A stretch of DNA of 64,000 nt from Deroplatys truncata (Eukaryota > Arthropoda > Insecta > Mantodea > Mantidae), in the NCBI GenBank assembly GCA_030765065.1, contig CM060977.1:99093795-99157794 (forward strand), given 5' to 3'. The position numbers and the translations under genes were made by a program. The notes below the pieces were generated by a model. It saw only the letters and a list, made by a program, of their open reading frames with translations, was not told the origin of the DNA and ran no database searches. Shown here one piece after another: positions 7,971-54,715 of the stretch. Numbering within the stretch: position 1 is the first letter of the stretch; each line of letters starts with the position of its first letter.

Positions 7971-7973
7971 AAT

Positions 7974-11236: not shown

Positions 11237-11240
11237 CATT

Positions 11241-12075
11241 CACAGGACTTTATCATCTATAGCTTATTATTAGTGGGTATACAAATTATTCTTACAAAAA
11301 TTTCTTTTCCTATCTGCTTCATTTTATTCGAGATAAATGTTTGCAGAAACTGCAACATTACACATTTTGTTATTAACACAGAGAGAACTGCGATAGTCAA
11401 ATGTTTAAGAACTTAACACTGTATACTGACCTTAAAATACTCCTTCCATAACATCGCGAGGGATAGATAATTATGGTCAGGACTTTATAAGAATTACAAA
11501 GAATTTTAGAATTATAACCATTAATAACGGATAAGTCGGAAATGGCTGATACTACAGAAAAAGTTATTTGAAATAAATTGTATGTTTTAAAGAGATCTAC
11601 ATTTTTTGTGTAGTACAGTTTGGTCTACCACTGATAGTTTAGCATTTATACAAGAATATACAAATTTTATTCCGGATTAAGAGGGCTTAGCAAGCTATTC
11701 CCCACAACAAAAAGAACAGAGTACCATTCTATTTCTCATGTAAATATTGTTAATATATATTGTTAGAGCATTTGTTAGAAAATAAAAGCATTCCAAAAAG
11801 TTTCCTTGTAAAGGGTAGTTTGAGGAGGGGGATGTTTTCTTGAAAACCAGTGCAACATCTTTGGAGACTTCTGACCTTAAATACCCAGTTTGATATTTAT
11901 CCGTTATTTTGTTTTTGAGCTACCTATTCACAGAAACACACACAACCTTTCTGAAAGGTTCTTTTTATTCATGGGGCTTCAAAATATGAGTTTTCGGTGA
12001 CTCTCGATATCGAATTTTTTGATAGAATGCAATGATCTATCTTCCAACTTTGTATGTGATAGAGAAAGTAAAAAT
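11241..12075 (+). repeat. Family A copy interrupted by the LTR retrotransposon
   Basis: The head lies at 6,980-6,995 and resumes at 11,241 ('cacaggactttatcatcta'). All landmarks follow to the tail 'gatagagaaagtaaaaatt' at 12,073. This gives a clean empty-site reconstruction for the LTR insertion. Confidence 0.75.
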
Positions 12076-14600: not shown

Positions 14601-15005
14601 CTTCTACAAACTATTCACTATCTTAATGTTCCTTCCAAGTACTTCATGTTGCTCAAGATAAACCTTTATAGAAAAGTGGTAATATAATGTCTTTAAAATT
14701 CCATATTCTTTCCATAAAATCGCGAGAAACAAGTTAATAGAGACAGCTTTTTTAAGAAACGGTAACGTATTGAAAGATTGAGCCAGTGACAGCGAATATC
14801 TCGAAATTAGCTGATACCACAAAAATTACTTGAAATAAATTGTGTTATTTTAAAGAAATCTACAGTTTTTGATTCAAGTTTTTGTCTATGTCATATTATG
14901 AGATTATGCAAAATTCCTTTCGAATAAAACGGATTTTACAGGCTATTCTGAAAAAAAATCAGGAGATACATTTTATTTACCGTGTAAATATCTTAAATAT
15001 ATGGT
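14590..15005 (+). repeat. Family A dispersed repeat, inverted relative to the preceding copy
   Basis: Plus-strand head-to-middle landmarks ('aattccatattctttccataaaat', 'gaaatctacagtttttg', 'gtaaatatcttaaatatatgg'). The 3' half is missing. Confidence 0.6.
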
Positions 15006-32062: not shown

Positions 32063-32519
32063 ATAAAAGGAGGATTACGTCTGTAGCTGTAACACTGTTG
32101 GTTTCGTCATCATAACTCATTAAGTTCTCAAAAGCAAGTGCAACTGTTACTTCTGCATCGTGCATCCCTCTTGCATTAAGCTGGGTGGATCAAACAACTA
32201 GTACATTGACCATTCTTAATAAAAACTATAGATTTGACTGTGCAACAAATACACCGTACCGTAATGTTGGGAAAACTTTTCTATCCCACTGCCTAAATCC
32301 CTAAGTATTTCCCATTTAATTCAAAATTAACTGTCCCTGCATTGCAGGTTACTTTTACATCATCAAATAGAATATCCTGCAGCCATCACCAGTGCACAAA
32401 TAAGGTGGATATAGTACAATATCCACTATAATTTGAAATTCATTTCAGTGTAAATCACTACCTAAATAAGGAGTTTTATCAATTACGAAAACTAAGTACC
32501 AATCATTTTTTAAAAAAAT

Positions 32520-33162
32520 AACAGAACATTATTTTCCAAATACTTTATTATTATATACTATCTTACACCTTACACTACTGCGCCACATAGTCACCTCCGC
32601 TATTCAGGCAATTGTAACGGGAATCTAGTTTTTGTATGCCATCGTTAAAGAATGATGCTGCCTATGATGAAACCAAGCCTGCACTTCTTATTTCATATCA
32701 TCGTCGTTGAAACGTTTCCCACCAAGGAATATCTTCAGATAAAGAAAGAGATGAAAATATTTTTTTTACAAATCCGGACTTTAGGAAGGTGGTCGAATTG
32801 TTTCTAACCAAATGATGCTATCAGATCTTGAGTTTGTTTGGCGTGTGTCTAATCCACTTACTCACTGTTCCATCACTCATTGATGTTTATCCATAAACCT
32901 CACACAATTGGCGATGAATGTTTGCTGGCGTAACATTTTTTGCCTTCAAAAACAATATTTCCAAACGCTCTAAAACAGGAAACACAAAGTGACGATCGCT
33001 AATAGCTGCATTTGTCTTCCTATTGTATGGAGGAAGTGATCGCGCATACTCATAATGGCAACTGCTCGGCAAAAGATTAAAACTGTACTTTAAAATCTCT
33101 TCTCGTACAACAGAACTCCAAGCATTAACCTTTATCACAGATGGTAAACATAACGCCATCAC
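32520..33162 (-). pseudogene. Mariner transposase remnant
   Basis: Minus strand, N-terminal part at 32,887-33,000: 'FLKAKNVTPANIHRQLCEVY', the mariner N-terminal helix-turn-helix start. Further on, 32,580-32,740 reads 'FLGGKRFNDDDMK' and a degraded 'VQAWF' segment, the mariner C-terminal region. The catalytic middle is lost or too diverged. The ORF's first ~60 codons before this are unrelated. Confidence 0.6.
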
Positions 33163-33589
33163 CGAGTAACTTGAATACTGAATGTTTGTAATCTCACCAA
33201 ATATATTATTATTATTTTAGCTAAGTGAACCACCAATCACTTAGACCATTTTCAAGGAAAAACAGTTCTAAGATTAAAGTTGGTTCGCTTCTTACTAGGC
33301 ATTCTGGAAAGTTTTATAATACAAACCGAAAACAAAACAACAAAATGAAACAAGAAGAAACGCTTAAAATAGTATTATAAGAAAATATAAATTAAACTTA
33401 AAATGAAACAGTCTTGCGAAATTCCTTCAATCAGCACTCCCTCAAAGCTGAAGGAAAATTAGCATGCTATATCTTTAATTATCACAGATGTTTTAATTTG
33501 AACACAAAATCAAATTAGTAAATTGATTTCTTATTATAAACAAAAGTTCATAGTTACAAGAAAAGAGGCCCTCATTCAAATGTTTCTTT
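33163..33589. other. Unassigned AT-rich sequence
   Basis: Nothing recognised. Confidence 0.4.
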
Positions 33590-33844: not shown

Positions 33845-33850
33845 ATGGGA
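33845..33850. repeat. 6-bp target site duplication ATGGGA, left
   Basis: ATGGGA immediately precedes the element's terminal AGTAGG and is repeated at 51,040-51,045. Six bases is the Polinton/Maverick duplication length. Confidence 0.9.
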
Positions 33851-33884
33851 AGTAGGTTATTTAGGACAGACCTGGCACAGTTTT

Positions 33885-34920
33885 TTGCGTTTATATGGGA
33901 AAAGTTAGGGAAAACGAGGGTAGATGCTAGGCTAGGAGAGCATCCAAGGAGGAAAAATGCGTTTATATGGGGGAGATAGGGAATATGAGGTTAGATGTCG
34001 ACTAGACAGGGTTTGAAAGGTCTGAATATACGCTTTATAAGGGAAAGGATAGGGAAAACGATGGGAGATGCTAGGTTGAGAGAGTCTTCATAGAGGAAAA
34101 TGAGTTTATATGGGGAGGGAGATAGGGAAAACGAGGGTAGATGCTAGGATAGACAGAGGTTGAAGTAGGAGGAATGTGCTTTATATGAGAGTGGCAGGGA
34201 ATACGAGGAGAAGCGCTAGGATAGTCAGAGGTCGAGTAGAGTATGGTTTATATGAAAGGTATAGGAAAACGAGGAGGGGTGTTAGGCTAGACAGAGTTGA
34301 AGGGTAGAGCATGTCTTTTATATGAGAGGGGTAGGGAACAGGAGCAGGGGTGTTAGGCTAGACAGAGGTCAAGAAGTAGAGTAGGGTTTATATGAAAGGT
34401 ATAGGAAAACGAGGAGGGGTGTTAGGCTAGACAGAGTTGAAGGGCAGAGCATGTCTTGTATATGAGAGAGGTAGGGAACAGGAGCAGGGGTGTTAGGCTA
34501 GGCAGAGGTCAAGAAGTAGAGTATGGTTTATATGAAAGGTATAGGAAAACGAGGAGGGGTGTTAGGCTAGACAGAGTTGAAGGGCAGAGCATGTCTTGTA
34601 TATGAGAGGGGTAGGGAGCAGGAGCAGGGGTGTTAGGCTAGACAGAGGTCAAGAAGTAGAGTAGGGTTTATATGAAAGGTATAGGAAAACGAGGAGGGGT
34701 GTTAGGCTAGACAGAGTTGAAGGGTAGAGCATGTCTTGTATATGAGAGAGGTAGGGAACAGGAGCAGGGTGTTAGGCTAGGCAGAGGTCAAGAAGTGGAG
34801 TATGGTTTATATGAAAGGTATAGGAAAACGAGGAGGGGTGTTAGGCTAGACAGAGTTGAAGGGCAGAGCATGTCTTGTGTATGAGAGAGGTAGGGAACTG
34901 GAGCAGGTAGATTCAGGGTA
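33885..34920. repeat. Subterminal tandem repeats, left arm
   Basis: At 34,246-34,920 there are ~5 copies of a 140-bp unit (starts at 34,246, 34,386, 34,526, 34,666, ~34,805). Each unit is a dimer of related ~70-bp subunits carrying 'gtttatatg', 'gtagggaa' and 'gttaggctagacagag'. More diverged single ~65-75-bp subunits extend outward to ~33,885. The mirror array is at 49,970-51,005. Confidence 0.85.
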
Positions 34921-35084
34921 TTTATATAGGTTTCAGAATATTTCGAGTGTTTTATAATGTTTTTAAGGTATTCTGACAATTTTCAAGACGTTTTCAAAGC
35001 TCGTGCTAGGAGTGTTTATGGCTCTTTAAAGGTATTTTAGGTTATGGATGTGGCATAGGCACAGACCATTAAGAGTTCCTGAAG

Positions 35085-35245
35085 GGGCTTTTGGATAAGT
35101 GTAGTGGCTGTTTTATCGGCTTTTGGAAAGTGCAGTGGCTATTTTATCGGCTTTTGGATAAGTGTAGTGACTGTTTTATCGGCTTTTGGTAAATGTAGTG
35201 GCTGTTTTTATGGACATTTGGAAAGTGCAGTGGCTATTTTTAAGC
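35085..35245. repeat. ~33-bp tandem repeats, left arm
   Basis: About five units of 'gtagtggctgttttatcggcttttgga'-type sequence. The 83-codon ORF covering them is a repeat artefact. Mirror copy at about 49,645-49,805. Confidence 0.75.
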
Positions 35246-35666
35246 CATTAGAGTTCCTGGTGGGCTTTTGGGGAAATGGTTTTCAGGCATTCTCTCTTGT
35301 TTATAGAGTTTTTCTCTTGTATTACACAGGTCTTATGATCTATAACCATTTCTAACGTTTTTTACAGTCATATCAGATCCTTTTATGACCTTCTCAATAT
35401 TCTAATGCTAGCATGTGTAAGTATGTAGAGATGCCTTTTATAACCCGACCTTAAGCTCTGTTAGTAATATTATTGTTTTATTCAGCTTTTCTGTTTTTGT
35501 ATGGTTAATTGGGGTTAGGTGTATCGTCTTTACCAGTTAATTGATGCTTTATTAGATAAGGATTGTAAGGGTAGGCGCCTCTCCCCTTTTATCTAGGCTT
35601 GAGACTAGCACTAGGATTTGCTCCTAATGGCAGGGTTACCACCTCCCTTCCACATTCTTATTTTTA

Positions 35667-35672
35667 TTTATT
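35667..35672 (-). terminator. PolB polyadenylation signal, left arm
   Basis: AATAAA on the minus strand about 100 bases after the polymerase stop codon. It overlaps a second AATAAA-like run. Mirrored at 49,218-49,223. Confidence 0.5.
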
Positions 35673-35770
35673 CTTAGGTGTCTGCTAGATGTATACACAG
35701 TACATGGCAAACTTCCACTTTTTAAAGTTGTAGAATCACGAGAAAATTATCATCTAAGGATTAGATTCTC

Positions 35771-38700
35771 TTAGGCACTGCTTGTAATGCTGTAATGGTC
35801 ATATGCATATGTCGTTATTCCATCCTCAGCAACGACTCTTTTATCGTATGGAGTCAATGCAATTTTATTCACTTGCACTGTGGTAACAGTATGTTTTCGT
35901 GACAGGATCAGATTCATGGGTGTCCTTATTATTTCTCGGGCTTTAAGACAGTCTGTATAACTGTCGAATGTGATGTGCTGCTTAATAGCGCCACGTTTTA
36001 TACCTTTAATCTTTTTTATGATTGAGCCGTGGATATCTAGCGCATACATCTTAGGTCGCAGTCCGACAAAGCGTTGGATGATTTTACCATTAGCCTCATC
36101 TTTAAATTTTCCAAGCACTTTCTTGTTTAGAGCTGAATAGCATATATGGTTTTTAGGATAATCAGCCGTATCCAGATGCTCAAGAAAACGTAGCTTGTCC
36201 TTGTACACATCTTCAGTTGTAACTTGATGGATGAATGAATCAGTATCCATATACATCAGCTTCAGGTTTTCAACTCCATAATGCGGTAACAACACATCAT
36301 AATGATAGTGATACATTAATGTCTTGGAGATGTCCAACACACTCATTCCAATGTATATAGGCTTGTTGAAGACGATCTGTCGGGAGGCCATATGCACAGC
36401 AGCTAGATTGGTAGCATATATTGTTCGATCGATAAACGTAGGCTTTGCAATTAACTTTTCCAGAGTCTTCTCGTTTACCACCAACCGTATATCCACACGA
36501 TTACGAAGGTTCTCCATTGTTTTTCCAAACATAGCATTGTTGAACAGTTTGTAGAGATCCTTCTCAAAATCATTTGCAGCCTTTTGTCGTAGTCTGTTGT
36601 TAAATTACACATACGGTTTTAACCACTGTGACTGTCGGAATTGTAGCACACGATGGATTTTTGTTAGTCGTAGTCCATGACTAAGAGCTTGCTTCAAAGT
36701 CATGTAATGCACTACATACTTCTTTCGTAATCCAAGGTGAGGAATTAACTTCTTTGTAGTAGACTCCTTTGGTTTCAGACACTCAGGCAGGAATGGTAAA
36801 TCATTATGCAGATCATGGAGTTCAGCAGGATACTCGACATCAACTTCTAATATGTATCCATGAGGATCATCTTCTTCTAGGCTTTGTAAGTTTATTTCTT
36901 CAGGTGAAACCCACTGAAATCCACCAAAAGGAAGGGCGTGACACATTGCCCACCCATATTGGTTATTAGCGTCCTCATATGTGATGAATTGGGTTGGTCT
37001 CGACGAATCAAACTTTTCCATGTAAGTGTTATTAGCCTCTGCATACCGATGGGACACTTGGCATAAACCTCCTCTTATGCCGGATTCCACCATGAGTAGT
37101 TGATCATAATCCTGTAACAGTTCCAGTTCGATTCCAGTATACAGTAACATGGCGTCCCATGTAAGTCCTGGAGAGGTAAAATAATGTGCCGGATCAACTT
37201 TGTGCGTTTTGAGAGTTTGCTCTCTGAATGTCTCAAAGACATCAGCTAGAAGAAGATCATCAGATATTAAGTAGAGGTCGCTGTATTCACCCAGGTTTCT
37301 CACATTGAACAGTCTCCATACATTTGTAGCATGTTCGTAGTCAGCATCACTAATTTCTTCTTCATTCAGTTTATTGTAGAAGCAATTCTTAGGAGGCAGA
37401 CAGGTTTCGTTCAAGACGTTCCATGAAGTGACGTAATCATAGGGAAATACACCCTTACGTGTCATCAACTTCATCTTGTCTTCTCCGAAGTACTTCAATG
37501 TTTCAGGGTACGATGTCAGATTTTTTACCAGCTTATCCAAGCTTGTACTCAGGAACCGAAAACTATCTACAAAACGGAGCTTTATATCTCCTACATACTT
37601 GGAGAATGAGATATAGCTTTCTTCAGAGCTAGGAATTACCTCCACACGGTCACTTGTACATCCCAACTCCTTAACAATGAAGTGTGAGTCATACCCACTG
37701 AGGTTGTGCATGAAGACTGGAATATATTTAGGCGTTTTACAGGCTAAATTGCATTCATTATGAAGACTTCCCCGATATTCACCACTGATGTGATCATGGT
37801 CGCGTACTTTGTAGTTCTCTTCAGTAAAGGTTTTTCCACACAAGTAGCATACTATAGAAGACTCAAAATCCTTCTGCTGTTGATCTGTAAGTTTCAGGGG
37901 CATGACAGATTTGTATATATTATTAATCTCCTTTGCAAGGAATGACAGGTATTCCATAAACTTCTGAGCAGCATCATAACCACGATATACATAGGGTTGC
38001 TTAGGAAGACCTGTTTCGAGGTGTTCAACGCTGGTTGATGGTTTAACGTAAACACAGAAGCTCATTGCTGTATGCTCTTGATAAGGGGTTGTATAAGAAG
38101 TTTCAGGACTGGGTATGCATGTATGAAATGGAGCGAGAATGCTTTCAAAGTCTGCATAGATGACGTAAGGTAGTTTCAACATCCTTTCAAAATTTTTAAA
38201 CTGTACAATTGATTTCTCCTTTGTAGGCATAACTACCCTTGCAACACCATGCTGATTACAGATGGATGCATGTTCTTGCAGCTTTTCCAGTCCACTTCGT
38301 CCATATCGATCGTCAAAATGTGTAAAGCACCGCTTACAGGTATATATCACTCCATCATGCTTAGTTTTCTGACGTCGAACGAGCTTCTCAAAATTCTTGA
38401 TATATACATAGTGATGTTTTCCACTACTGTCACTCAATAGTAGGAGGTCACGGTGGTCAGATAGCTCAGTGTCAGCAACCTTTATCGGATACACTTCATG
38501 CTTCTCATCCAGACCGAAAACGTTGATAGACATCCTATTAAGCTTCTCAAATTTAGGTATTTGAGAAAGTGGAGTAGGATAGGATACGCAGCTGAAGTCG
38601 TACTTATCTTGAAGCTGTTTGTATTTACTCACACGCTGTGCATTCTTCTCGACGAATTTGGCTAGTACAGAATATATGAAGCATAGCTCATCAGTTAAAT

Positions 38701-39421
38701 TCTGGATGTTAATGCATGCTTTCATTGCTTCAATAGATGGCGGTAGTGCTATGTAGCTGCTTCCTCGTAAGGGTTTGTACTTGTTAATACGAAGGCGCAC
38801 CCCTTCCACAGCAAGCAGAGCCCAGCTGCTTCCCTTTAATTGTGACTCCTCCATTTCAGTAACCAACTTCTTCATTTTCGTTTCCAGCATAGAGTCCAGA
38901 TCCGTTTCTAAGAAAGCAGCTTGATTCCGTGTTTTAAATGGTTTGTCACAGGTTTCTCCGATACTGTTTACAAATCGGCACTCAACCACCAGATTAATTT
39001 TCACACTCTTGTGAATACCAAGCTCTTTATGCACTGCCTGGATTATTCGTTGTTTGGCCTCATGCAGGTACATATTCAAGTCCTTAGATGAATCGCATCG
39101 TATAAAATACGATTTCAATCGTCCTTCGAACGCTGTCTCGTATTCTTTCATGTCACAGTCCTCCATTGTGGATAATATGTGATGTTTGGTAGGCTCCAAT
39201 CTGCTTTTCTTCTGAGGACTGCTTATTTCACATACGTCTTCGTGCCGCTGTCCCTTGTAACCATCATTAAAGGTTACATTACAATGTTTACATTGGAAGA
39301 GCTTCTTGCAGCTCATCTCGTGTCTTCTCTTGTCATAACTTCGGAGGAATTCCTTTCTACATTTACTACAAGCGTATCCAGTAGCGCTTGGAATAATATC
39401 CTTATACGCTGAGTTATTCAT
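35771..39421 (-). pseudogene. polB: Polinton-type protein-primed family B DNA polymerase, left copy (in-frame stop)
   Basis: From the ATG at 39,421 the frame is open for 938 codons to a TAA at 36,607-36,605, and then continues in the same frame to 35,771. Features in order: two N-terminal C2HC fingers (residues 18-38 and 44-64); another Cys/His cluster ~360-400; exonuclease motif I (D424-F-E426); an HNH/endonuclease VII-like insert with Cys/His ligands (~525-560); exonuclease II (NLSGYD578); exonuclease III (Y717-x3-D721); polymerase motif A (D817-ANNQYG). After the stop come motif B (NNAMFGKTMEN) and motif C (YMDTDS). All catalytic motifs are present, so only the TAA between motifs A and B breaks it. 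Residue 722 is Asp here and Val in the right copy. Confidence 0.88.
36605..36607 (-). other. In-frame TAA in left PolB
   Basis: It separates palm motif A from motif B. The same TAA at the same place is in the right arm (48,283-48,285). The downstream frame stays open for 277 codons, which implies a point nonsense change and no larger decay. The context does not resemble known leaky-stop contexts. Confidence 0.85.
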
Positions 39422-39580
39422 CTTTATTCTTGATGCAATAACGTATGAATCCTTCTTCAAGGGAAATGTAGACCTTTTTGCCTTGATAACACTTTAGAAA
39501 GCTGATTATTCTTGGAGAGAACACGATGTTAACACCGCAAGACTAATTAGCGCAATGAAGTCCAGTGTCCGCGGTCACCC

Positions 39581-39588
39581 TATTTATA
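39581..39588 (-). promoter_or_regulatory. PolB TATA box, left arm
   Basis: TATAAATA on the minus strand, ~160 bases upstream of the polymerase ATG, with a plausible start ~30 bases downstream. Mirrored at 45,298-45,305. Confidence 0.55.
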
Positions 39589-39755
39589 GAGGTAGCACGA
39601 ACCTTTTAGATCAATTATATACTGAATTTTAATAATAAAACGATGATTAAGCGTCTAAACTCTTATATCTCAATACGTTACACAGGTATTCGGACGTTTC
39701 CGTAGGTGTTCGAACATGTTCGTGTGTTTGGAGAGGTGCTCGAATGTGTTGTATA

Positions 39756-40600
39756 TGTCTGCGTATGTATCTGTGTGTGTGTGTGTTTTGAACTGTCTCG
39801 GGGTGTGCGCGTCTGTGTGTGTGTATCTGTGCGTGGCCGTGTGTATATCTGTGTGTGTGTATCTGTGTGTGTGTGTCGGTGTGTGTGTGTCGGTGTGTGT
39901 ATGTCTATGTGTGTGTATGTCAGCGTGTGTGTATATGTCTGCGTGTGTGTGTGTGTCTGTGTGTATGTGTGTGTGTGTATCTGTGCGTGTGTCTGCGTGT
40001 GTGTATGCCCGTGGGGGTGTGTCTGCGTGTGTGTGTATGTCCGTGTGTGTGTATCTGTGCGTGTGTTTGTATGTGTGTGTATGTCCGTGTGTGTGTGTGT
40101 CCGCGTGTGTGTGTGTGTGTCTGTGGGGGGGTGTGTGTGTATGTGTGTGTCTGTGTGTTTTGAACTGTCTCGGGGTGTGTATGTCTGCGTGTGTGTGTAT
40201 GGCCGTGTGTGTATCTGTGCGTGTCTGTGTGTGTGTGTGTATCTGTGTGTGTGTGTATGTATGTGTCTGTGTGTTTTGAACTGTCTCGGGGTGTGTATGT
40301 CTGCGTGTGTGTATATGGCCGTGTGTGTGTATCTGTGCGTGCCTGTGTGTGTGTGTGTGTATCTGTGTGTGTGTGTCGGTGTGTGTGTGAGTCTGGGTGT
40401 GTATGTCTATGTGTGTATGTATGTCAGCATGTGTGTATATGTCTGCGTGTGTGTGTGTGTGGGTGTGTGTGTGTGTATCTGTGTGTGTGTGTCTGCGTGT
40501 GTATATGCCCGTGGGAGTGTGTCTGCGTGTGTGTGTGTGTGTGTATGAGATTGTGTGTTTATGTCTGTGTATGTGTGTGTGCAGGGGTGTGTGCTGATCA
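39756..40600. repeat. GT-rich minisatellite block, left arm
   Basis: Impure (TG)n with embedded units such as 'tgtatgtctgcgtgtg', plus three copies of the unique marker 'gttttgaactgtctcggggt' (about 39,784, 40,155 and 40,272). All six-frame ORFs here are Cys/Val or His/Thr low complexity. The mirror block is at 44,283-45,128. A purine-rich tail (GAAA-type) follows at 40,600-40,685. Confidence 0.85.
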
Positions 40601-40744
40601 AGAAGAAGAAAGGAATAAAGTAGAAAGGAAGAAGGAAAGAGAGAAAGAAGATAAAAAAAACAGAAGAAAGAAAAAAAGAAAGAAAATTAAGAATTTTAAT
40701 TCAGACCTGAGGATACTTAAGTATACTTATAAATATATGGGTTA

Positions 40745-42120
40745 AACACTTTTTATTCCAGCCGTATATGTCTCCTAGTTTAATATTTATGAACCAGTAA
40801 ATTTTTTATAAGATTCGAACAAGGACCATAGGCTACCTAAGTACGTATCACGGTTTAACACTGATAATGTATTACATCTAATAAACACATTTTTGATCCG
40901 CCCATACAACTCCCTTAGTTTAATAGCTATTAATCATTAAATATTTTGCTCTAAGATAATAGTAAAAATTTAATCCTTAAATAGCTTGATTATAAGTATT
41001 TTCTAATGATACCTGAAAAGTCTTTCACTAAGTCTCTTTGTGCTATAAACTTATTCTGTTTTACTATATTTGTCTAAGTCTTTTAACTCATTAAGAATTA
41101 ACCATTTAGGTTTTACCGATTCGAGGTCGGATATGAACTTCGGACTCCTAAATAGCCTGTTCAGAGAATCTATCCACTGCCATCAATTTAATGTAATTTG
41201 TTCAAAGAGTCTAGCTGCCCTACTTCGGGAATAATGAAACATCAAAGTTTTTAACTCTGGCGAGAGTCGAACTCCGGACCCTAGAGATATCTTTCCGTAA
41301 CTAATCAATAATACAGGACTATGTGAATCCTTGCTGATGCTAAAAGGGCATAAAGTTAGTAGTATACATTTGAATGTGAAGTATCAATTCTTGGTAGCAA
41401 TATTTATTTGTAGTTCTAGTTATTAAAATTATTTTCTTGGTAAATATCGGCGTTTTTAGAACGCTTCGGAGAACTGTACGCAGGACCTTTTAACAAGACA
41501 TGTGGAGAAACCGCTTATGCGAAGGGTGAGTCAATAGCCGCTAAATTGTATACAGAAGGGAGACAGCGTATCGATCTTTCTCCCAGGCAATAACATGCGG
41601 GGGCTGTATGCTCCAAAAATTGGTATACAGAATTTCTAATCCATGTATGCCACTAACAGAAGGTTTAGCGTTCTTATCAGGGTATTTAAGTAAAGAGTGA
41701 CGCTTGTTAACCTTTAAAGCTAAATATTCCAATATTTTTTCATCGCTTGTGATTCCACTCTGCAAAATTTCTCATTGTAATAAAGAGGTGTGCTTTAGTT
41801 AGCGAACATCGTATACTAGCCATTTCTACGATATCTTTCAGAACCCTCCTGTTGCATTTTAGCGGATAACACAAGCGTGTTATCGACCCAGTTCAAAGCA
41901 ACAAGTCCCGGTAGGATGGTTTTCACTCGTTAGACGTGCTCGCCACAAAAATTGAAACTTGTATTTTTTTATTTGATGTATATGATTAGAATTAACGCTG
42001 TGTACTTTATAGGGGTGAATCATGTCTCATAGCTGACTGGAAATGCAGACATTATTTTGATTACCTCCTCCCACCCAAAGCCGAGGAGGAGGGACGAGCC
42101 TTTAAATGCTTCAACTAAAT
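40745..42120. other. AT-rich inner segment, left arm
   Basis: No recognised gene. An ATG-less 74-codon ORF (41,541-41,765, minus) is preserved in the right arm (43,119-43,343), but identity between arms is near complete everywhere, so that is no evidence for coding. A tRNA-like 'ggagttcgactctcgcc' lies at about 41,263-41,279 (minus). This is where other Polinton genes might be expected, and none is visible. Confidence 0.5.
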
Positions 42121-42199
42121 GTCACCACGTGGCCGGGAATGATAAACTGTCAACTCGCCAGTAACCATTAATATATCCAGAAGACTCATGCACTATAGG

Positions 42200-42690
42200 T
42201 CCCCTTTGCCCGAAAGACCAATTGAACCATGCGAACCAATTAAAAAGCCATAAATTGATACAGAACGTACCCGTTACTTGGGTCGTCTTTGCCCGAAAGA
42301 CCAATTACAGCCAATTTAAATCAATTAAGCCAATTAAAAAGCCATAAATTTATATAGAACATACACGCTACTTGGGTCGTCTTTGCCCGAAAGACCAATT
42401 TAAATCAATTAAGCCAATTAAAAAGCCATACATTTGTATTTTCTATATCAATTTATGGCTTTTTAATTGGCTTAATTGATTTAAATTGGTCTTTCGGGCA
42501 AAGACGACCCAAGTAGCGTGTATGTTCTATATAAATTTATGGCTTTTTAATTGGCTTAATTGATTTAAATTGGCTGTAATTGGTCTTTCGGGCAAAGACG
42601 ACCCAAGTAACGGGTACGTTCTGTATCAATTTATGGCTTTTTAATTGGTTCGCATGGTTCAATTGGTCTTTCGGGCAAAGGGGACCTATA
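42200..42690. repeat. Palindrome centre: ~95-bp repeats and 23-nt turnaround
   Basis: Units containing 'tttgcccgaaagaccaatt' and 'ccaattaaaaagccata' occur three times on the left of the centre and three times inverted on the right. The pairing stops at 42,430 and resumes at 42,454. The 23 bases between (catttgtatt/ttctatatca/att) are not self-complementary. They look like the continuation of the right-arm unit, which places the switch point inside a repeat unit. Confidence 0.85.
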
Positions 42691-42761
42691 GTGCATGAGT
42701 CTTCTGGATATATTAATGGTTACTGGCGAGTTGACAGTTTATCATTCCCGGCCACGTGGTG

Positions 42762-44135
42762 ACATTTAGTTGAAGCATTTAAAGGCTCGTCCCTCCTCCT
42801 CGGCTTTGGGTGGGAGGAGGTAATCAAAATAATGTCTGCATTTCCAGTCAGCTATGAGACATGATTCACCCCTATAAAGTACACAGCGTTAATTCTAATC
42901 ATATACATCAAATAAAAAAATACAAGTTTCAATTTTTGTGGCGAGCACGTCTAACGAGTGAAAACCATCCTACCGGGACTTGTTGCTTTGAACTGGGTCG
43001 ATAACACGCTTGTGTTATCCGCTAAAATGCAACAGGAGGGTTCTGAAAGATATCGTAGAAATGGCTAGTATACGATGTTCGCTAACTAAAGCACACCTCT
43101 TTATTACAATGAGAAATTTTGCAGAGTGGAATCACAAGCGATGAAAAAATATTGGAATATTTAGCTTTAAAGGTTAACAAGCGTCACTCTTTACTTAAAT
43201 ACCCTGATAAGAACGCTAAACCTTCTGTTAGTGGCATACATGGATTAGAAATTCTGTATACCAATTTTTGGAGCATACAGCCCCCGCATGTTATTGCCTG
43301 GGAGAAAGATCGATACGCTGTCTCCCTTCTGTATACAATTTAGCGGCTATTGACTCACCCTTCGCATAAGCGGTTTCTCCACATGTCTTGTTAAAAGGTC
43401 CTGCGTACAGTTCTCCGAAGCGTTCTAAAAACGCCGATATTTACCAAGAAAATAATTTTAATAACTAGAACTACAAATAAATATTGCTACCAAGAATTGA
43501 TACTTCACATTCAAATGTATACTACTAACTTTATGCCCTTTTAGCATCAACAAGGATTCACATAGTCCTGTATTATTGATTAGTTACGGAAAGATATCTC
43601 TAGGGTCCGGAGTTCGACTCTCGCCAGAGTTAAAAACTTTGATGTTTCATTATTCCCGAAGTAGGGCAGCTAGACTCTTTGAACAAATTACATTAAATTG
43701 ATGGCAGTGGATAGATTCTCTGAACAGGCTATTTAGGAGTCCGAAGTTCATATCCGACCTCGAATCGGTAAAACCTAAATGGTTAATTCTTAATGAGTTA
43801 AAAGACTTAGACAAATATAGTAAAACAGAATAAGTTTATAGCACAAAGAGACTTAGTGAAAGACTTTTCAGGTATCATTAGAAAATACTTATAATCAAGC
43901 TATTTAAGGATTAAATTTTTACTATTATCTTAGAGCAAAATATTTAATGATTAATAGCTATTAAACTAAGGGAGTTGTATGGGCGGATCAAAAATGTGTT
44001 TATTAGATGTAATACATTATCAGTGTTAAACCGTGATACGTACTTAGGTAGCCTATGGTCCTTGTTCGAATCTTATAAAAAATTTACTGGTTCATAAATA
44101 TTAAACTAGGAGACATATACGGCTGGAATAAAAAG
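42762..44135. other. AT-rich inner segment, right arm
   Basis: Mirror of 40,745-42,120. No gene recognised. Confidence 0.5.
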
Positions 44136-44282
44136 TGTTTAACCCATATATTTATAAGTATACTTAAGTATCCTCAGGTCTGAATTAAAATTCTTAATTT
44201 TCTTTCTTTTTTTCTTTCTTCTGTTTTTTTTATCTTCTTTCTCTCTTTCCTTCTTCCTTTCTACTTTATTCCTTTCTTCTTC

Positions 44283-45128
44283 TTGATCAGCACACACCCC
44301 TGCACACACACATACACAGACATAAACACACAATCTCATACACACACACACACGCAGACACACTCCCACGGGCATACACACACGCAGACACACACACACA
44401 GATACACACACACACACACCCACACACACACACACGCAGACATATACACACATGCTGACATACATACACACATAGACATACACACCCAGACTCACACACA
44501 CACCGACACACACACACACACAGATACACACACACACAGGCACGCACAGATACACACACACGGCCATACACACACACGCAGACATACACACCCCGAGACA
44601 GTTCAAAACACACAGACACATACATACACACACACAGATACACACACACACAGACACGCACAGATACACACACGGCCATACACACACACGCAGACATACA
44701 CACCCCGAGACAGTTCAAAACACACAGACACACACATACACACACACCCCCCCACAGACACACACACACACGCGGACACACACACACACGGACATACACA
44801 CACATACAAACACACGCACAGATACACACACACGGACATACACACACACGCAGACACACCCCCACGGGCATACACACACGCAGACACACGCACAGATACA
44901 CACACACACATACACACAGACACACACACACACGCAGACATATACACACACGCTGACATACACACACACATAGACATACACACACAGACTCACACACACC
45001 GACACACACACACACAGATACACACACACACAGATATACACACGGCCACGCACAGATACACACACACAGACGCGCACACCCCGAGACAGTTCAAAACACA
45101 CACACACACACACAGATACATACGCAGA
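44283..45128. repeat. CA-rich minisatellite block, right arm
   Basis: Mirror of 39,756-40,600, with the three 'accccgagacagttcaaaac' markers at about 44,590, 44,701 and 45,077. Overall length matches the left block, although single CA units differ locally. Confidence 0.85.
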
Positions 45129-45297
45129 CATATACAACACATTCGAGCACCTCTCCAAACACACGAACATGTTCGAACACCTACGGAAACGTCCGAATAC
45201 CTGTGTAACGTATTGAGATATAAGAGTTTAGACGCTTAATCATCGTTTTATTATTAAAATTCAGTATATAATTGATCTAAAAGGTTCGTGCTACCTC

Positions 45298-45333
45298 TAT
45301 AAATAGGGTGACCGCGGACACTGGACTTCATTG
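45298..45333 (+). promoter_or_regulatory. PolB core promoter, right arm
   Basis: TATAAATAG at 45,298, then a probable start near 'cttcattg' ~30 bases downstream. The ATG is at 45,465. The two arm promoters are divergent. Confidence 0.55.
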
Positions 45334-45464
45334 CGCTAATTAGTCTTGCGGTGTTAACATCGTGTTCTCTCCAAGAATAATCAGCTTTCTAAAGTGTTAT
45401 CAAGGCAAAAAGGTCTACATTTCCCTTGAAGAAGGATTCATACGTTATTGCATCAAGAATAAAG

Positions 45465-48400
45465 ATGAATAACTCAGCGTATAAGGATATTATTCCAAGC
45501 GCTACTGGATACGCTTGTAGTAAATGTAGAAAGGAATTCCTCCGAAGTTATGACAAGAGAAGACACGAGATGAGCTGCAAGAAGCTCTTCAAATGTAAAC
45601 ATTGTAATGTAACCTTTAATGATGGTTACAAGGGACAGCGGCACGAAGACGTATGTGAAATAAGCAGTCCTCAGAAGAAAAGCAGATTGGAGCCTACCAA
45701 ACATCACATATTATCCACAATGGAGGACTGTGACATGAAAGAATACGAGACAGCGTTCGAAGGACGATTGAAATCGTATTTTATACGATGCGATTCATCT
45801 AAGGACTTGAATATGTACCTGCATGAGGCCAAACAACGAATAATCCAGGCAGTGCATAAAGAGCTTGGTATTCACAAGAGTGTGAAAATTAATCTGCTGG
45901 TTGAGTGCCGATTTGTAAACAGTATCGGAGAAACCTGTGACAAAACATTTAAAACACGGAATCAAGCTGCTTTCTTAGAAACGGATCTGGACTCTATGCT
46001 GGAAACGAAAATGAAGAAGTTGGTTACTGAAATGGAGGAGTCACAATTAAAGGGAAGCAGCTGGGCTCTGCTTGCTGTGGAAGGGGTGCGCCTTCGTATT
46101 AACAAGTACAAACCCTTACGAGGAAGCAGCTACATAGCACTACCGCCATCTATTGAAGCAATGAAAGCATGCATTAACATCCAGAATTTAACTGATGAGC
46201 TATGCTTCATATATTCTGTACTAGCCAAATTCGTCGAGAAGAATGCACAGCGTGTGAGTAAATACAAACAGCTTCAAGATAAGTACGACTTCAGCTGCGT
46301 ATCCTATCCTACTCCACTTTCTCAAATACCTAAATTTGAGAAGCTTAATAGGATGTCTATCAACGTTTTCGGTCTGGATGAGAAGCATGAAGTGTATCCG
46401 ATAAAGGTTGCTGACACTGAGCTATCTGACCACCGTGACCTCCTACTATTGAGTGACAGTAGTGGAAAACATCACTATGTATATATCAAGAATTTTGAGA
46501 AGCTCGTTCGACGTCAGAAAACTAAGCATGATGGAGTGATATATACCTGTAAGCGGTGCTTTACACATTTTGACGATCGATATGGACGAAGTGGACTGGA
46601 AAAGCTGCAAGAACATGCATCCATCTGTAATCAGCATGGTGTTGCAAGGGTAGTTATGCCTACAAAGGAGAAATCAATTGTACAGTTTAAAAATTTTGAA
46701 AGGATGTTGAAACTACATTACGTCATCTATGCAGACTTTGAAAGCATTCTCGCTCCATGTCATACATGCATACCCAGTCCTGAAACTTCTTATACAACCC
46801 CTTATCAAGAGCATACAGCAATGAGCTTCTGTGTTTACGTTAAACCATCAACCAGCGTTGAACACCTCGAAACAGGTCTTCCTAAGCAACCCTATGTATA
46901 TCGTGGTTATGATGCTGCTCAGAAGTTTATGGAATACCTGTCATTCCTTGCAAAGGAGATTAATAATATATACAAATCTGTCATGCCCCTGAAACTTACA
47001 GATCAACAGCAGAAGGATTTTGAGTCTTCTATAGTATGCTACTTGTGTGGAAAAACCTTTACTGAAGAGAACTACAAAGTACGCGACCATGATCACATCA
47101 GTGGTGAATATCGGGGAAGTCTTCATAATGAATGCAATTTAGCCTGTAAAACGCCTAAATATATTCCAGTCTTCATGCACAACCTCAGTGGGTATGACTC
47201 ACACTTCATTGTTAAGGAGTTGGGATGTACAAGTGACCGTGTGGAGGTAATTCCTAGCTCTGAAGAAAGCTATATCTCATTCTCCAAGTATGTAGGAGAT
47301 ATAAAGCTCCGTTTTGTAGATAGTTTTCGGTTCCTGAGTACAAGCTTGGATAAGCTGGTAAAAAATCTGACATCGTACCCTGAAACATTGAAGTACTTCG
47401 GAGAAGACAAGATGAAGTTGATGACACGTAAGGGTGTATTTCCCTATGATTACGTCACTTCATGGAACGTCTTGAACGAAACCTGTCTGCCTCCTAAGAA
47501 TTGCTTCTACAATAAACTGAATGAAGAAGAAATTAGTGATGCTGACTACGAACATGCTACAAATGTATGGAGACTGTTCAATGTGAGAAACCTGGGTGAA
47601 TACAGCGACCTCTACTTAATATCTGATGTTCTTCTTCTAGCTGATGTCTTTGAGACATTCAGAGAGCAAACTCTCAAAACGCACAAAGTTGATCCGGCAC
47701 ATTATTTTACCTCTCCAGGACTTACATGGGACGCCATGTTACTGTATACTGGAATCGAACTGGAACTGTTACAGGATTATGATCAACTACTCATGGTGGA
47801 ATCCGGCATAAGAGGAGGTTTATGCCAAGTGTCCCATCGGTATGCAGAGGCTAATAACACTTACATGGAAAAGTTTGATTCGTCGAGACCAACCCAATTC
47901 ATCACATATGAGGACGCTAATAACCAATATGGGTGGGCAATGTGTCACGCCCTTCCTTTTTCCCACTGGATTTCAGTGGGTTTCACCTGAAGAAATAAAC
48001 TTACAAAGCCTAGAAGAAGATGATCCTCATGGATACATATTAGAAGTTGATGTCGAGTATCCTGCTGAACTCCATGATCTGCATAATGATTTACCATTCC
48101 TGCCTGAGTGTCTGAAACCAAAGGAGTCTACTACAAAGAAGTTAATTCCTCACCTTGGATTACGAAAGAAGTATGTAGTGCATTACATGACTTTGAAGCA
48201 AGCTCTTAGTCATGGACTACGACTAACAAAAATCCATCGTGTGCTACAATTCCGACAGTCACAGTGGTTAAAACCGTATGTGTAATTTAACAACAGACTA
48301 CGACAAAAGGCTGCAAATGATTTTGAGAAGGATCTCTACAAACTGTTCAACAATGCTATGTTTGGAAAAACAATGGAGAACCTTCGTAATCGTGTGGATA

Positions 48401-49119
48401 TACGGTTGGTGGTAAACGAGAAGACTCTGGAAAAGTTAATTGCAAAGCCTACGTTTATCGATCGAACAATATATGCTACCAATCTAGCTGCTGTGCATAT
48501 GGCCTCCCGACAGATCGTCTTCAACAAGCCTATATACATTGGAATGAGTGTGTTGGACATCTCCAAGACATTAATGTATCACTATCATTATGATGTGTTG
48601 TTACCGCATTATGGAGTTGAAAACCTGAAGCTGATGTATATGGATACTGATTCATTCATCCATCAAGTTACAACTGAAGATGTGTACAAGGACAAGCTAC
48701 GTTTTCTTGAGCATCTGGATACGGCTGATTATCCTAAAAACCATATATGCTATTCAGCTCTAAACAAGAAAGTGCTTGGAAAATTTAAAGATGAGGCTAA
48801 TGGTAAAATCATCCAACGCTTTGTCGGACTGCGACCTAAGATGTATGCGCTAGATATCCACGGCTCAATCATAAAAAAGATTAAAGGTATAAAACGTGGC
48901 GCTATTAAGCAGCACATCACATTCGACAGTTATACAGACTGTCTTAAAGCCCGAGAAATAATAAGGACACCCATGAATCTGATCCTGTCACGAAAACATA
49001 CTGTTACCACAGTGCAAGTGAATAAAATTGCATTGACTCCATACGATAAAAGAGTCGTTGCTGAGGATGGAATAACGACATATGCATATGACCATTACAG
49101 CATTACAAGCAGTGCCTAA
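45465..49119 (+). pseudogene. polB: Polinton-type protein-primed family B DNA polymerase, right copy (frameshift + in-frame stop)
   Basis: Same gene as the left copy, with ATG at 45,465. The frame is open to 47,990 and carries both zinc fingers, exonuclease I-III and motif A (GAC at 47,913). A net +4-base change at ~47,961 shifts the frame just after motif A. The original frame resumes in another phase up to the shared TAA (48,283-48,285) and then through motifs B and C (YMDTDS at 48,637-48,654) to 49,119. Six residues differ from the left copy before the shift. The normal enzyme would copy linear DNA from a protein primer. This copy cannot make it without bypassing two lesions. Confidence 0.88.
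47957..47980 (+). other. Template-switch insertion in right PolB
   Basis: The right arm reads CCCACT-GGATTTC-AGTGGG, a perfect 6-bp stem around a 7-nt loop. The left arm has GGT in place of the seven bases TCCCACT. The new bases are the complement of the AGTGGG that follows. This is the signature of quasi-palindrome correction by strand switching, and it causes the frameshift. Confidence 0.8.
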
Positions 49120-49217
49120 GAGAATCTAATCCTTAGATGATAATTTTCTCGTGATTCTACAACTTTAAAAAGTGGAAGTTTGCCATGTACTGTGTATACA
49201 TCTAGCAGACACCTAAG

Positions 49218-49223
49218 AATAAA
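49218..49223 (+). terminator. PolB polyadenylation signal, right arm
   Basis: AATAAA ~100 bases after the stop codon, followed by AATAAAAATAA. Confidence 0.5.
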
Positions 49224-49969
49224 TAAAAATAAGAATGTGGAAGGGAGGTGGTAACACTGCCATTAGGAGCAAATCCTAGTGCTAGTCTCAAGCCTAGATA
49301 AAAGGGGAGAGGCGCCTACCCTTACAATCCTTATCTAATAAAGCATCAATTAACTGGTAAAGACGATACACCTAACCCCAATTAACCATACAAAAACAGA
49401 AAAGCTGAATAAAACAATAATATTACTAACAGAGCTTAAGGTCGGGTTATAAAAGGCATCTCTACATACTTACACATGCTAGCATTAGAATATTGAGAAG
49501 GTCATAAAAGGATCTGATATGACTGTAAAAAACGTTAGAAATGGTTATAGATCATAAGACCTGTGTAATACAAGAGAAAAACTCTATAAACAAGAGAGAA
49601 TGCCTGAAAACCATTTCCCCAAAAGCCCACCAGGAACTCTAATGGCTTAAAAATAGCCACTGCACTTTCCAAATGTCCATAAAAACAGCCACTACATTTA
49701 CCAAAAGCCGATAAAACAGTCACTACACTTATCCAAAAGCCGATAAAATAGCCACTGCACTTTCCAAAAGCCGATAAAACAGCCACTACACTTATCCAAA
49801 AGCCCCTTCAGGAACTCTTAATGGTCTGTGCCTATGCCACATCCATAACCTAAAATACCTTTAAAGAGCCATAAACACTCCTAGCACGAGCTTTGAAAAC
49901 GTCTTGAAAATTGTCAGAATACCTTAAAAACATTATAAAACACTCGAAATATTCTGAAACCTATATAAA

Positions 49970-51005
49970 TACCCTGAATCTACCTGCTCCAGTTCCCTAC
50001 CTCTCTCATACACAAGACATGCTCTGCCCTTCAACTCTGTCTAGCCTAACACCCCTCCTCGTTTTCCTATACCTTTCATATAAACCATACTCCACTTCTT
50101 GACCTCTGCCTAGCCTAACACCCTGCTCCTGTTCCCTACCTCTCTCATATACAAGACATGCTCTACCCTTCAACTCTGTCTAGCCTAACACCCCTCCTCG
50201 TTTTCCTATACCTTTCATATAAACCCTACTCTACTTCTTGACCTCTGTCTAGCCTAACACCCCTGCTCCTGCTCCCTACCCCTCTCATATACAAGACATG
50301 CTCTGCCCTTCAACTCTGTCTAGCCTAACACCCCTCCTCGTTTTCCTATACCTTTCATATAAACCATACTCTACTTCTTGACCTCTGCCTAGCCTAACAC
50401 CCCTGCTCCTGTTCCCTACCTCTCTCATATACAAGACATGCTCTGCCCTTCAACTCTGTCTAGCCTAACACCCCTCCTCGTTTTCCTATACCTTTCATAT
50501 AAACCCTACTCTACTTCTTGACCTCTGTCTAGCCTAACACCCCTGCTCCTGTTCCCTACCCCTCTCATATAAAAGACATGCTCTACCCTTCAACTCTGTC
50601 TAGCCTAACACCCCTCCTCGTTTTCCTATACCTTTCATATAAACCATACTCTACTCGACCTCTGACTATCCTAGCGCTTCTCCTCGTATTCCCTGCCACT
50701 CTCATATAAAGCACATTCCTCCTACTTCAACCTCTGTCTATCCTAGCATCTACCCTCGTTTTCCCTATCTCCCTCCCCATATAAACTCATTTTCCTCTAT
50801 GAAGACTCTCTCAACCTAGCATCTCCCATCGTTTTCCCTATCCTTTCCCTTATAAAGCGTATATTCAGACCTTTCAAACCCTGTCTAGTCGACATCTAAC
50901 CTCATATTCCCTATCTCCCCCATATAAACGCATTTTTCCTCCTTGGATGCTCTCCTAGCCTAGCATCTACCCTCGTTTTCCCTATCTTTTCCCATATAAA
51001 CGCAA
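49970..51005. repeat. Subterminal tandem repeats, right arm
   Basis: Mirror of 33,885-34,920: five 140-bp units and outer ~70-bp subunits. Confidence 0.85.
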
Positions 51006-51039
51006 AAAACTGTGCCAGGTCTGTCCTAAATAACCTACT

Positions 51040-51045
51040 ATGGGA
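51040..51045. repeat. 6-bp target site duplication ATGGGA, right
   Basis: Follows the terminal ...CCTACT directly. The sequence beyond it is the continuation of family A and not the complement of the left flank. Confidence 0.9.
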
Positions 51046-52210: not shown

Positions 52211-52815
52211 GACTCCACTTCAACCATTCAGGCTCTCTGCTCGCAAGGAAACCAACATGAGGACGATCTGGTCACTGAATGCCAAGACAGACTGCATAAA
52301 CTGCAAGAATTGACATAAGTTCGTTTGCAATGGGTCCCGGGCCACTGCTACCTTGACGGAAATGAGAAATCCGACGCTTTAGCCAAGGAAGGATGCTCAA
52401 TGGAGCAGCCAGTTGTACCAATGACATACTCAAACATCAGTAGCGTCATAACATCTCGAATCAAAGGAGCAATTGTAGACTCTCGGAAGGTAGCGGCAGC
52501 TGATACAAGATGGGAAATGCTTGCTTCAAACCCCATCCCCAACAACCTGCCCCGAGAGCTGGCAGTAGCCACCTTTAGGATGACTTCAGGGCACGATTAT
52601 TTGCAAAAACACCAGCATAGAATCGGTGTGGTTGATAGCCCAATTTGTCCCCTCTGCTTGCAAGAGGAAGGCACTGCTGACCATTTGGCCTCCTGCACTG
52701 CCCTGCAGACTGTTATAGTGGAAGATTCTATGGAAGAAAGGTCACGACTGTACTGGGAGGCAAGGCGTTGAATGGCAGACCAGCCAAGGACAGGCGTTGG
52801 CCGAAGAAGAAGAAG
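52211..52815 (+). mobile_element. 5'-truncated LINE, ORF2 3' end
   Basis: A 605-bp insertion bounded by the 11-bp duplication AAATTGATTCC (52,200-52,210 and 52,816-52,826). The 3' end is a short (GAA)n tail. It holds only the end of ORF2, so it is a typical target-primed, 5'-truncated copy. Confidence 0.75.
52220..52771 (+). pseudogene. LINE ORF2 fragment: RNase H end and C-terminal zinc motif
   Basis: 'LQWVPGHCYLDGNEKSDALA' is the RNase H C-terminal signature (WVPGH..l.GNE.aD.lA) found in I/Jockey-group LINEs. 'CPLCLQEEGTADHLASC' is the terminal Cys/His motif. An in-frame stop lies just before the WVPGH segment (at ~52,314), so the upstream RNase H part is separated. It is non-functional. 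Confidence 0.75.
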
Positions 52816-53402: not shown

Positions 53403-54715
53403 CGGGGGTCATCCAGAAACTAAGTTCCGATCGCGTCCAGAGATGGTACCACCAGTCGGATAAGAATGCGCATGCCAGGAGTAGAGAGGAAGTATGTGGG
53501 AATAATGCAGCACAGTTTCAATCTTGTGACGGCTGTGGTTTATGGCACAGTGATCGGAAAAAATGGCCGCCCTAATCTTGTCTCCCGCTAACAGCGAGGT
53601 TCGTGCAGTCATCCAATTTTTGCACTCTCGAAAGCAATCTCCAGCAGAGATCCATCGCCAATTGTGTATCGTATGTATGGACACGACATTATGTGCGACA
53701 GTATGGTAAGATGATGGTGCAGGCATTTCACTGAAGGACGAACCAATATTCACGACGAAGACCGTAGTGGCCGACCATTCCTGGTGACGCCAGAACTGAT
53801 GAAAAGTGTGCGGCAAGCAATTGTGCAGAACCGGTGCATCACAATTTCAGAACTCTCTTGTAAATTCCCCAAGATGTCTAGCTCGCTTCTGCACGAAATT
53901 GTCTCCCGGTGGCTTGGTTTTCACTTAGTGTGTGCAAGATGGGTGCCAAGGCAACTGACTAATGAAAACAAAACGAAACGTCTGGCCGCAGCATTGACAT
54001 TCCTACAGCGATACGCAGAGAAAAGGGACGAGTTTCTCAACAGTATTGCCACAGGAGATGAAACATGGTGTCGCATGTCACATCAGAGACAAAGCAACAA
54101 TCAATGCATTAGCATCATAGTGGCTTACCTGTGAAGACCAAATTGAAACAGACAACCTCTGTCAAAAAATTATGCACACTGTCTTCTGGGATCGAAATGT
54201 TGACCTATTGTGTCAGTTCTTACCGCGAGGGGAGACTTTAAACGCTGATTGATATTGTCAGTCATTAATAAACTGAGGAGGACAATCCAGAACAAGAGTC
54301 TGGGATGTTGACAAGAGTCACTACGCTATTGCATGACAATGCAAGACCCCATACAGCCAACGCCACAATGTGTTGAATCAGTTTGGATGGGAGATCTTCG
54401 ACCATCCACCCTACAACCCGATCTCGCCCCAAGCGAGCTTCATCTCTTTCGTCTCATGAAGCGTTTTCTGACAGGAAAACCTTTCCACAATGGCTCTGAA
54501 GTGCAGAATGAACAGACTTCGTGGCTTCGGACATTGGCGGCAGACTCCTATGACTTGGGCATACAATCGATGATGCACCGTTACGATAAGTGCCTTAACA
54601 ATGGTGGTGACTATGTTAAAAATATCCAATGAAGTGATTATTGCAATAAATATCCCTTACTTAGTGATAATTTTGATCTCTTTATCGCTCATCGTTAGTT
54701 TCTGGATGACCCTCA
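53403..54715 (+). mobile_element. Mariner transposon nested in a LINE
   Basis: 1,313 bp with ~20-bp terminal inverted repeats sharing GGGTCATCCAGAAACTAA and TA target duplications. This is full length for the mariner family. It sits inside the minus-strand Jockey-like LINE, whose two halves (52,850-53,400 and 54,716-55,300) flank it. Confidence 0.9.
53563..54632 (+). pseudogene. Mariner transposase, frameshifted
   Basis: Recognisable from the ATG at 53,563 ('EVRAVIQFLHSRKQSPAEIH', helix-turn-helix 1). It continues through 'SRWLGFHLVCARWVPRQLT' and the first catalytic segment TGDETW (54,051-54,068). The second is 'HDNARPHTAN' (about 54,334-54,363), and the third is 'PDLAPSELHLF' with the closing 'MHRYDKCLNNGGDYV'. 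This is a mariner D,D34D-type enzyme. Several frameshifts and stops (e.g. after HDNARPHTANATMC) separate the pieces, so it is inactive. Confidence 0.85.

Follow-up and report, generated by a model that had tools for sequence, protein, structure and literature searches.

We analyzed a 64,000-nucleotide stretch of the genome of the mantis Deroplatys truncata (hereafter, the window), in which positions 33851-51039 are occupied by a near-perfect palindrome of 17,189 bp with one outward-facing PolB gene in each arm. This element probably belongs to a family of PolB-only, palindromic Polinton (Maverick) derivatives, which propagates as a palindrome and whose arms probably template each other during protein-primed replication. 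Our comparisons showed that the window element was inserted as a unit, that the palindromic form was present at every locus compared, and that there were one-sided differences at the centres of copies. They further showed that, wherever the tree gives resolution, each arm has the other arm of its own copy as its closest relative.

Inverted self-alignment of the window element returned a single match of 17,217 columns with 99.41% gapped identity. The element and its edges are organized as follows.

33851..51039, no strand: whole palindromic element, 17,189 bp, from inverted self-alignment
33845..33850, plus strand: target-site duplication ATGGGA, left
51040..51045, plus strand: target-site duplication ATGGGA, right
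33851..42430, plus strand: left arm, 8,580 bp, starting AGTAGG
42431..42453, no strand: central loop, 23 bp, as a whole non-palindromic
42454..51039, minus strand: right arm, 8,586 bp, ending CCTACT
34099..34907, plus strand: subterminal tandem array, left, unit ~70/140 bp
49983..50791, minus strand: subterminal tandem array, right
39745..40605 (approximate), plus strand: GT-rich array, left
44275..45140 (approximate), minus strand: GT-rich array, right
42236..42680, no strand: 94-bp tandem repeats flanking the turnaround on both sides

The termini were AGTAG...CTACT, and the length of the arms alone excludes a chance origin of the palindrome. The turnaround was located at arm position ~8584, where the 23-bp loop sits inside the 94-bp repeats; at the loop edge, one mismatch is followed by three more pairing bases. 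Outside the GT-rich array and the loop, the arms differed by nine substitutions and one 2-for-6-base change, and the GT-rich array held most of the remaining differences. When joined with one ATGGGA, the flanks formed a continuous dispersed repeat, and four other window copies of this repeat (25419-25162, 5475-5902, 4142-4338, and 14904-15005) aligned across the junction with no insertion there. The exact duplication and the rejoining flanks, therefore, indicate a unit insertion with a 6-bp duplication. An initial annotation of the window had described a palindrome at these positions with two ~8.58-kb arms, AG...CT ends, an ATGGGA duplication, and flanks that rejoin into a repeat; its coordinates proved exact, and its view of a palindrome with Polinton-type ends integrated as a unit was borne out by the ends, the duplication, and the rejoined flanks.

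The arm differences of the window element were rich in transversions, with a transition:transversion count of 3:9 compared to 455:375 in 11 other copies treated by the same uniform method. A sequencing-error origin of these differences was considered and rejected; an early count of 1:8 became 3:9 by the uniform method, which is at most a mild oddity.

The PolB gene was present in both arms as the following pieces.

36605..39493, minus strand: PolB of the left arm, first open piece, 962 codons, ending at an in-frame stop
35771..36604, minus strand: PolB of the left arm, second open piece in the same frame, 277 codons, containing YMDTDS
45465..47990, plus strand: PolB of the right arm, first piece, with the frame lost near 47966
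48286..49119, plus strand: PolB of the right arm, second piece, after the stop common to both arms, identical to that of the left arm

The first piece comprises a zinc-finger-like N-terminal part, an endonuclease VII-like stretch, and the exonuclease and first polymerase motifs. The exonuclease and polymerase motif residues were retained. The window PolB is broken in both arms, since the in-frame stop is common to both and the right arm additionally goes out of frame near 47966. Before this frame loss, six coding substitutions separate the arms, and each of them changes the amino acid, which fits a copy no longer under selection.

Next, we examined the identity of this gene. Pfam named the endonuclease VII-like stretch only (E 5e-5, the left copy lying just under the curated cut-off), and a PDB sequence search named no polymerase. 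An endonuclease VII-like domain is described inside the POLB of a Spodoptera Maverick (PMC5803895). Single-protein scans of the viral_contigs collection gave no relative, and the first 22 bases of the element had no match there. A pattern scan found an IMG/VR contig whose PolB matched the first window piece with 35% identity over 921 columns (E 2e-151) and the second with 42% over 250 columns (E 1e-58); full-length identity was 35-43%. This contig carries an rve integrase beside PolB (E 6e-8), together with an ATPase of the A32 type (E 5e-11) and a match to a capsid protein that is weak (E 0.03). On these grounds, the metagenomic contig was taken for a genuine Polinton. Its other 11 open reading frames (ORFs) had no match in the window. 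A phage search with the window PolB gave short matches, which, among the 20 listed, all lay in the endonuclease VII-like stretch and its surroundings. A 1,298-codon PolB of the same kind was also observed on L003, a 5-kb contig labelled as an uncultured Legionella bin and possibly a misbinned eukaryotic or viral contig.

A 539-residue structure model of the window PolB gave 10 matches in BFVD at E < 0.001. By name, nine of these were viral polymerases (from bidnaviruses, parvo-like viruses, an adintovirus, or a MELD virus), and the remaining one was a densovirus 'structural protein'. In the PDB structure search, phi29 polymerase ranked first, although its E value of 0.056 was not significant. 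Since the model was weak and TM-scores in the significant BFVD rows were 0.25 or less, these Foldseek matches were counted as sequence-driven support only. The best BFVD matches were bidnavirus and parvo-like polymerases, with the adintovirus PolB at rank 5, as would suit an element from a bidnavirus-like or another PolB lineage rather than from Polintons proper; the derivation of bidnavirus PolB from Polintons, as presented in PMC4061559, also speaks for such a link. However, the 6-bp duplications and AGTAG ends are features given for Mavericks (PMC8097293), and the best full-length sequence relative lies on the contig with the rve integrase and A32-type ATPase. Thus, we regard this origin as improbable.

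To place the window element in its family, the host genome (4.29 Gb, 818 contigs) was searched; genome-wide scoring covered 40 of 6,705 first-look candidates for the terminal 1 kb and 49 of 25,454 for PolB. The terminal 1 kb had at least 102 matches, and 13 facing pairs outside the window were picked by eye. Both halves were read for copies A, C, D, E, F, G, H, I, K, L, and M, and parts for B-left and J. All 11 copies compared half against half were palindromes, with aligned arms of 3.5-8.8 kb at 93.5-99.6% identity. Inverted arms were observed at 18/18 loci compared: 12 over the full element, including the window; four at the centre only (B-left, C8, C4, and J); and two over the outer 3,146 bp only (two pairs of facing PolB genes). 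Of these 18 loci, 16 are the window itself or had been picked because termini or PolB genes were seen to face each other, while C8 and C4 entered by one scored end; palindromic interiors were not a selection criterion. The arms made up most of the element in all 12 fully read copies, with the smallest share in copy I, and none of them had a unique multi-gene interior between short terminal repeats.

Exact 6-bp duplications were found at 14 of the 17 loci where they were sought at both ends:

window ATGGGA; A ATTAGG; C GATGCA; E CATGTA; G TATGGG; H TATTCG; I TATCCC
K GGCCTC; L TTGCTT; M CATCTC; C4 CGTGTG; J GTGGTT; two PolB pairs CAGGAG and GCGAGT

As for the other three, D matched at five of six bases, F had no right terminus, and C16:624.97, a single scored end with a family terminus from C16:624970986 onward, had no partner terminus at the predicted distance. 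AGTAG was present at both termini in 13 of 15 loci with both ends read, with one base changed at one end in D and E. The initial annotation had proposed a search for other palindromic copies with the same ends and different 6-bp duplications, and such copies were indeed found, all 11 palindromic and most with exact duplications of their own. The rve integrase of the one diverged relative had no match in the window, the 22 halves of the 11 copies, B-left, C8, or the outer ends of the two PolB pairs, and its packaging ATPase and capsid-like ORF had none in the same stretches. As no rve integrase was found, the family was filed as a Polinton derivative and not as a complete Polinton; the earlier description 'PolB-only' stands within the reach of the query used, namely the 12 ORFs of a single diverged relative.

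Long palindromes are hard to assemble, and the copies are known from the assembly, so that an artefact, in which long terminal repeats surround a collapsed unique middle, had to be weighed. The window arms carry private differences: two amino-acid differences could be polarised with relatives, giving one derived change in each arm, and the arms, therefore, look like real, separately decaying sequences. Furthermore, 11/11 other copies were palindromic, several with common, sequence-specific centres, and single-copy centres of ~1 kb did assemble in eight copies. We thus consider an artefact highly improbable, and the doubt about assembly collapse that accompanied the initial annotation is answered in part by the palindromic copies and the private derived changes.

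The centres of the copies were then compared. In A, C, E, F, H, K, B-left, and C8, the centre is single-copy over ~1.0-1.2 kb and reaches ~8584 (8515 in H and 8574 in K), and the inverted arm resumes at ~7513-7539 where mapped (7520 in B-left; C8 was outside the mapping). This arrangement is as expected of a one-sided deletion beside a window-type centre. Similarly, L lacks 430 bp present at the centre of M, on one side only, which leaves a 325-bp spacer. D and G have a 400-bp stretch in common, with spacers of 207 and 235 bp, and J has a 673-bp spacer. From the symmetry, the differences among centres appear to be deletions and not additions. At least three centre classes were distinguished, namely the window type, L/M, and D. 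A tail-to-tail joining of two complete elements was rejected, as the window and M centres, read by eye, contained no terminus in the required orientation. In the centre of copy M (L032/L033), a ~100-bp loop and its edges contain AGTAGTAG...GACAG..CTGGCACAG, a stretch that resembles a terminus and has the same orientation as the outer end; it might be a buried second end.

These centres bear on the possibility that the copies arose independently of one another, each as a snap-back accident that befell an ordinary, non-palindromic Polinton and was integrated once. Such accidents could account for the three or more centre classes and for the fold-back-like turnaround with its 23-bp loop. However, one centre (~8584) is common to the window, A, C, E, F, H, K, B-left, and C8, another is common to L and M, and no non-palindromic parent was met among the 18 loci, although 16 of these had been chosen as described above. 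Repeated accidents are, therefore, quite unlikely in our judgment. The initial annotation had interpreted the window element as an inverted-dimer (snap-back) product. The turnaround with its short loop is indeed as expected of fold-back replication, whereas a single accidental dimer does not agree with inverted arms at 18/18 loci.

Phylogenetic analysis by FastTree was employed to analyze the relationship between arms. In the inner region, the two arms of one copy were sisters in 7/7 copies; in the terminal 250 bp, they were sisters in 9/11, with L and M as exceptions; and in PolB, they were sisters in 2/3, with L as the exception. The arms of L (terminal region and PolB) and M (terminal region) were not grouped as pairs because L and M are nearly identical. 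With the GT-rich array masked, arm-arm divergence was 0.14-0.16% in the window, L, and M, 0.25-2.4% in the other copies, and 4.5% in I. The simplest account of these values is that the arms were made equal at or near each insertion and then drifted apart.

Alternatively, the palindrome may have arisen rarely, and the arms of inserted copies may have been kept alike by chromosomal gene conversion and not by fold-back copying, as are the arms of Y-chromosome palindromes. Sister arms within a copy are also predicted by conversion, and the arms are adjacent in the chromosome. Nevertheless, the divergence of 0.14-4.5% across copies resembles insertion ages and not a steady conversion level, the three measured PolB-bearing copies have the most alike arms, and two copies from separate loci, almost the same in sequence, each have arms that hardly differ. 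Because the copies differ so widely in arm divergence, conversion is disfavoured, and we rate it as unlikely, although less so than the other alternatives considered here.

The PolB gene was also followed across the genome. Its first 938 residues were found at all 49 scored places, the left window copy included, with 96-100% identity; 34 of these had a stop-free frame of 1,220 or more codons, and four had an internal stop. As many as 40 of the 49 formed 20 pairs within 20 kb, and all 20 pairs were arranged minus-then-plus, back to back as in the window, at distances of 1.6-5.1 kb. The nine unpaired matches include the left window copy, whose right partner is frame-broken. Two of the 20 pairs were followed outward; both ended in family termini, and the identity between their arms over the outer 3,146 bp was 99.94 and 99.97%. 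Among the 12 fully read copies, the window, L, and M carry PolB. Comparison of the left window PolB with that of M over 938 codons (Nei-Gojobori) gave a synonymous divergence (dS) of 0.50 and a nonsynonymous divergence (dN) of 0.058, that is, a ratio of 0.117, indicating purifying selection on PolB between these two palindromic lineages. The initial annotation had likened the element to the defective inverted-dimer genomes of protein-primed viruses. This comparison fails for the family, because inverted arms at 18/18 loci, the centre classes, 34/49 open PolB frames, and purifying selection in the one comparison made do not suit a defective dimer, and palindromes at every locus compared, many with common centres, do not suit a single, non-heritable by-product of a complete parent; for the window copy, itself broken, the word 'defective' remains apt.

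We propose the following mechanism for propagation as a palindrome. PolB would start copying from both ends by protein priming, and the displaced single strand, being self-complementary, would fold into a full-length hairpin. One arm would then be corrected or re-made from the other, so that the palindrome would be renewed in each cycle. A Polinton integrase acting in trans would insert the palindrome, the source of this integrase being a guess. Perfect centres would be unstable and would decay by one-sided central deletions, leaving single-copy centres of 0.3-1.2 kb.

Several results weigh against this interpretation of the family. The arms of L and M fail to pair in the terminal and PolB trees, copy I is the least palindromic with ~2.7 kb between its aligned arms, and gene conversion acting on inserted copies could also have equalised the arms. 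With one diverged relative as the query, none of the stretches read yielded an integrase, ATPase, or capsid gene; Pfam and NCBIfam name no polymerase domain in the window PolB, and its structure models are poor (pLDDT 30 for P0002 and 47.6 for the 539-residue model). The window's own PolB is broken in both arms, and nine of the 12 fully read copies have no PolB match in either half, so that many copies would depend on others. The purifying-selection figure comes from the single pair of window left PolB and M, and the family is known here from assembled sequence, not from reads or replication intermediates. Taken together with these points, propagation as a palindrome by arms that template each other remains the interpretation we consider probable.

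A stronger proposal is an obligate palindromic life cycle, in which only the information of one arm is inherited and the other arm is re-made by fold-back copying at each replication; we put this forward tentatively, at slightly less than even chances. If true, mutations and deletions would be fixed in both arms at once, and the gene would always be present twice. Arm-arm divergence would then date each insertion, as long terminal repeats (LTRs) do in retrotransposons, which may provide a natural dating system, and cassettes of PolB plus ends would be modules of the sort presumed to have given bidnaviruses their polymerase; they may also be a plausible origin of PolB genes captured by other viruses. 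Long perfect palindromes tend to be unstable, and selection normally acts against them. In this genome, however, an element of viral origin, ~10-18 kb long, recurs as a near-perfect palindrome at one locus after another, and many of its PolB frames are open and stand in facing pairs. Two questions thereby become directly testable, namely how protein-primed elements replicate and correct their ends inside the nucleus of a eukaryote, and how long palindromes are tolerated and trimmed by chromosomes, for which the apparent one-sided central deletions can be read copy by copy.

Other features were also observed in the window. Direct repeats of ~983 bp, 99% alike and with TG...CA ends, lie at 6992-7975 and 10258-11241, with a 340-residue coiled-coil-like ORF between them, and the first is followed by TGGCGCC, presumably a primer-binding-like site. 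Thus, 6992-11241 looks like a short LTR-retrotransposon-like element, in whose one long ORF no reverse transcriptase was named. A satellite-like array with a 74-bp unit and a 224-bp higher-order period occupies 61316-63455. Translated fragments at 32500-33220 and 53700-54650 resemble a mariner-type transposase, and another at 52319-52768 resembles the RNase H end of a LINE.

Finally, the family was compared with known systems. In the open literature searched for palindromic, snap-back, or nonautonomous Polintons, no paper was listed as describing a palindromic Polinton, subscription papers and Repbase being outside the search. In the Foldback (FB) elements of Drosophila, very long inverted repeats similarly leave little or no unique sequence between them; these elements are not known to carry PolB or Polinton ends. 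SYREC is a palindromic defective genome of adenovirus, a protein-primed virus, in which one end is duplicated at both termini. Snap-back genomes of adeno-associated virus (AAV) are likewise described as fold-back genomes (PMC8235507). Both resemble the present family in the fold-back genome with one end at both termini; however, they are defective by-products, whereas here the palindrome is the heritable, integrated form with many open PolB frames. Teratorn, reported as a herpesvirus/piggyBac fusion with long inverted repeats and 18-bp terminal inverted repeats (TIRs) of its own type (PMC6431247), is similar as a large, virus-derived mobile element with long inverted repeats, but differs in that fusion and in its 18-bp TIRs. 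Bidnaviruses, whose account gives a PolB of Polinton descent, inverted termini, and a parvovirus-derived capsid protein and helicase (PMC4061559), share with the family the Polinton-descended PolB, the inverted termini, and a number of the best-ranked BFVD matches; Pfam scanning of a few window ORFs, with no dedicated query, named no capsid protein or helicase of the parvovirus type. For Polinton-like viruses, many contigs with long TIRs are reported, and those with TIRs encode mCP and a packaging ATPase (PMC4642659); the long TIRs are thus shared, whereas mCP and the packaging ATPase were not found here. In vertebrates, intact Mavericks are described with TIRs of 46-1,447 bp (mean 402), eight conserved ORFs, (AGT)2//(ACT)2 or (AG)3//(CT)3 ends, and 6-bp duplications (PMC8097293). 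The present family agrees with these in its AGTAG...CTACT ends, close to (AGT)2//(ACT)2, its 6-bp duplications, and, in likeness to Polintons, its PolB with an endonuclease VII-like stretch and its overall size of 17 kb. In contrast, its TIRs make up nearly the whole element, and PolB, present twice, is the sole recognised gene.

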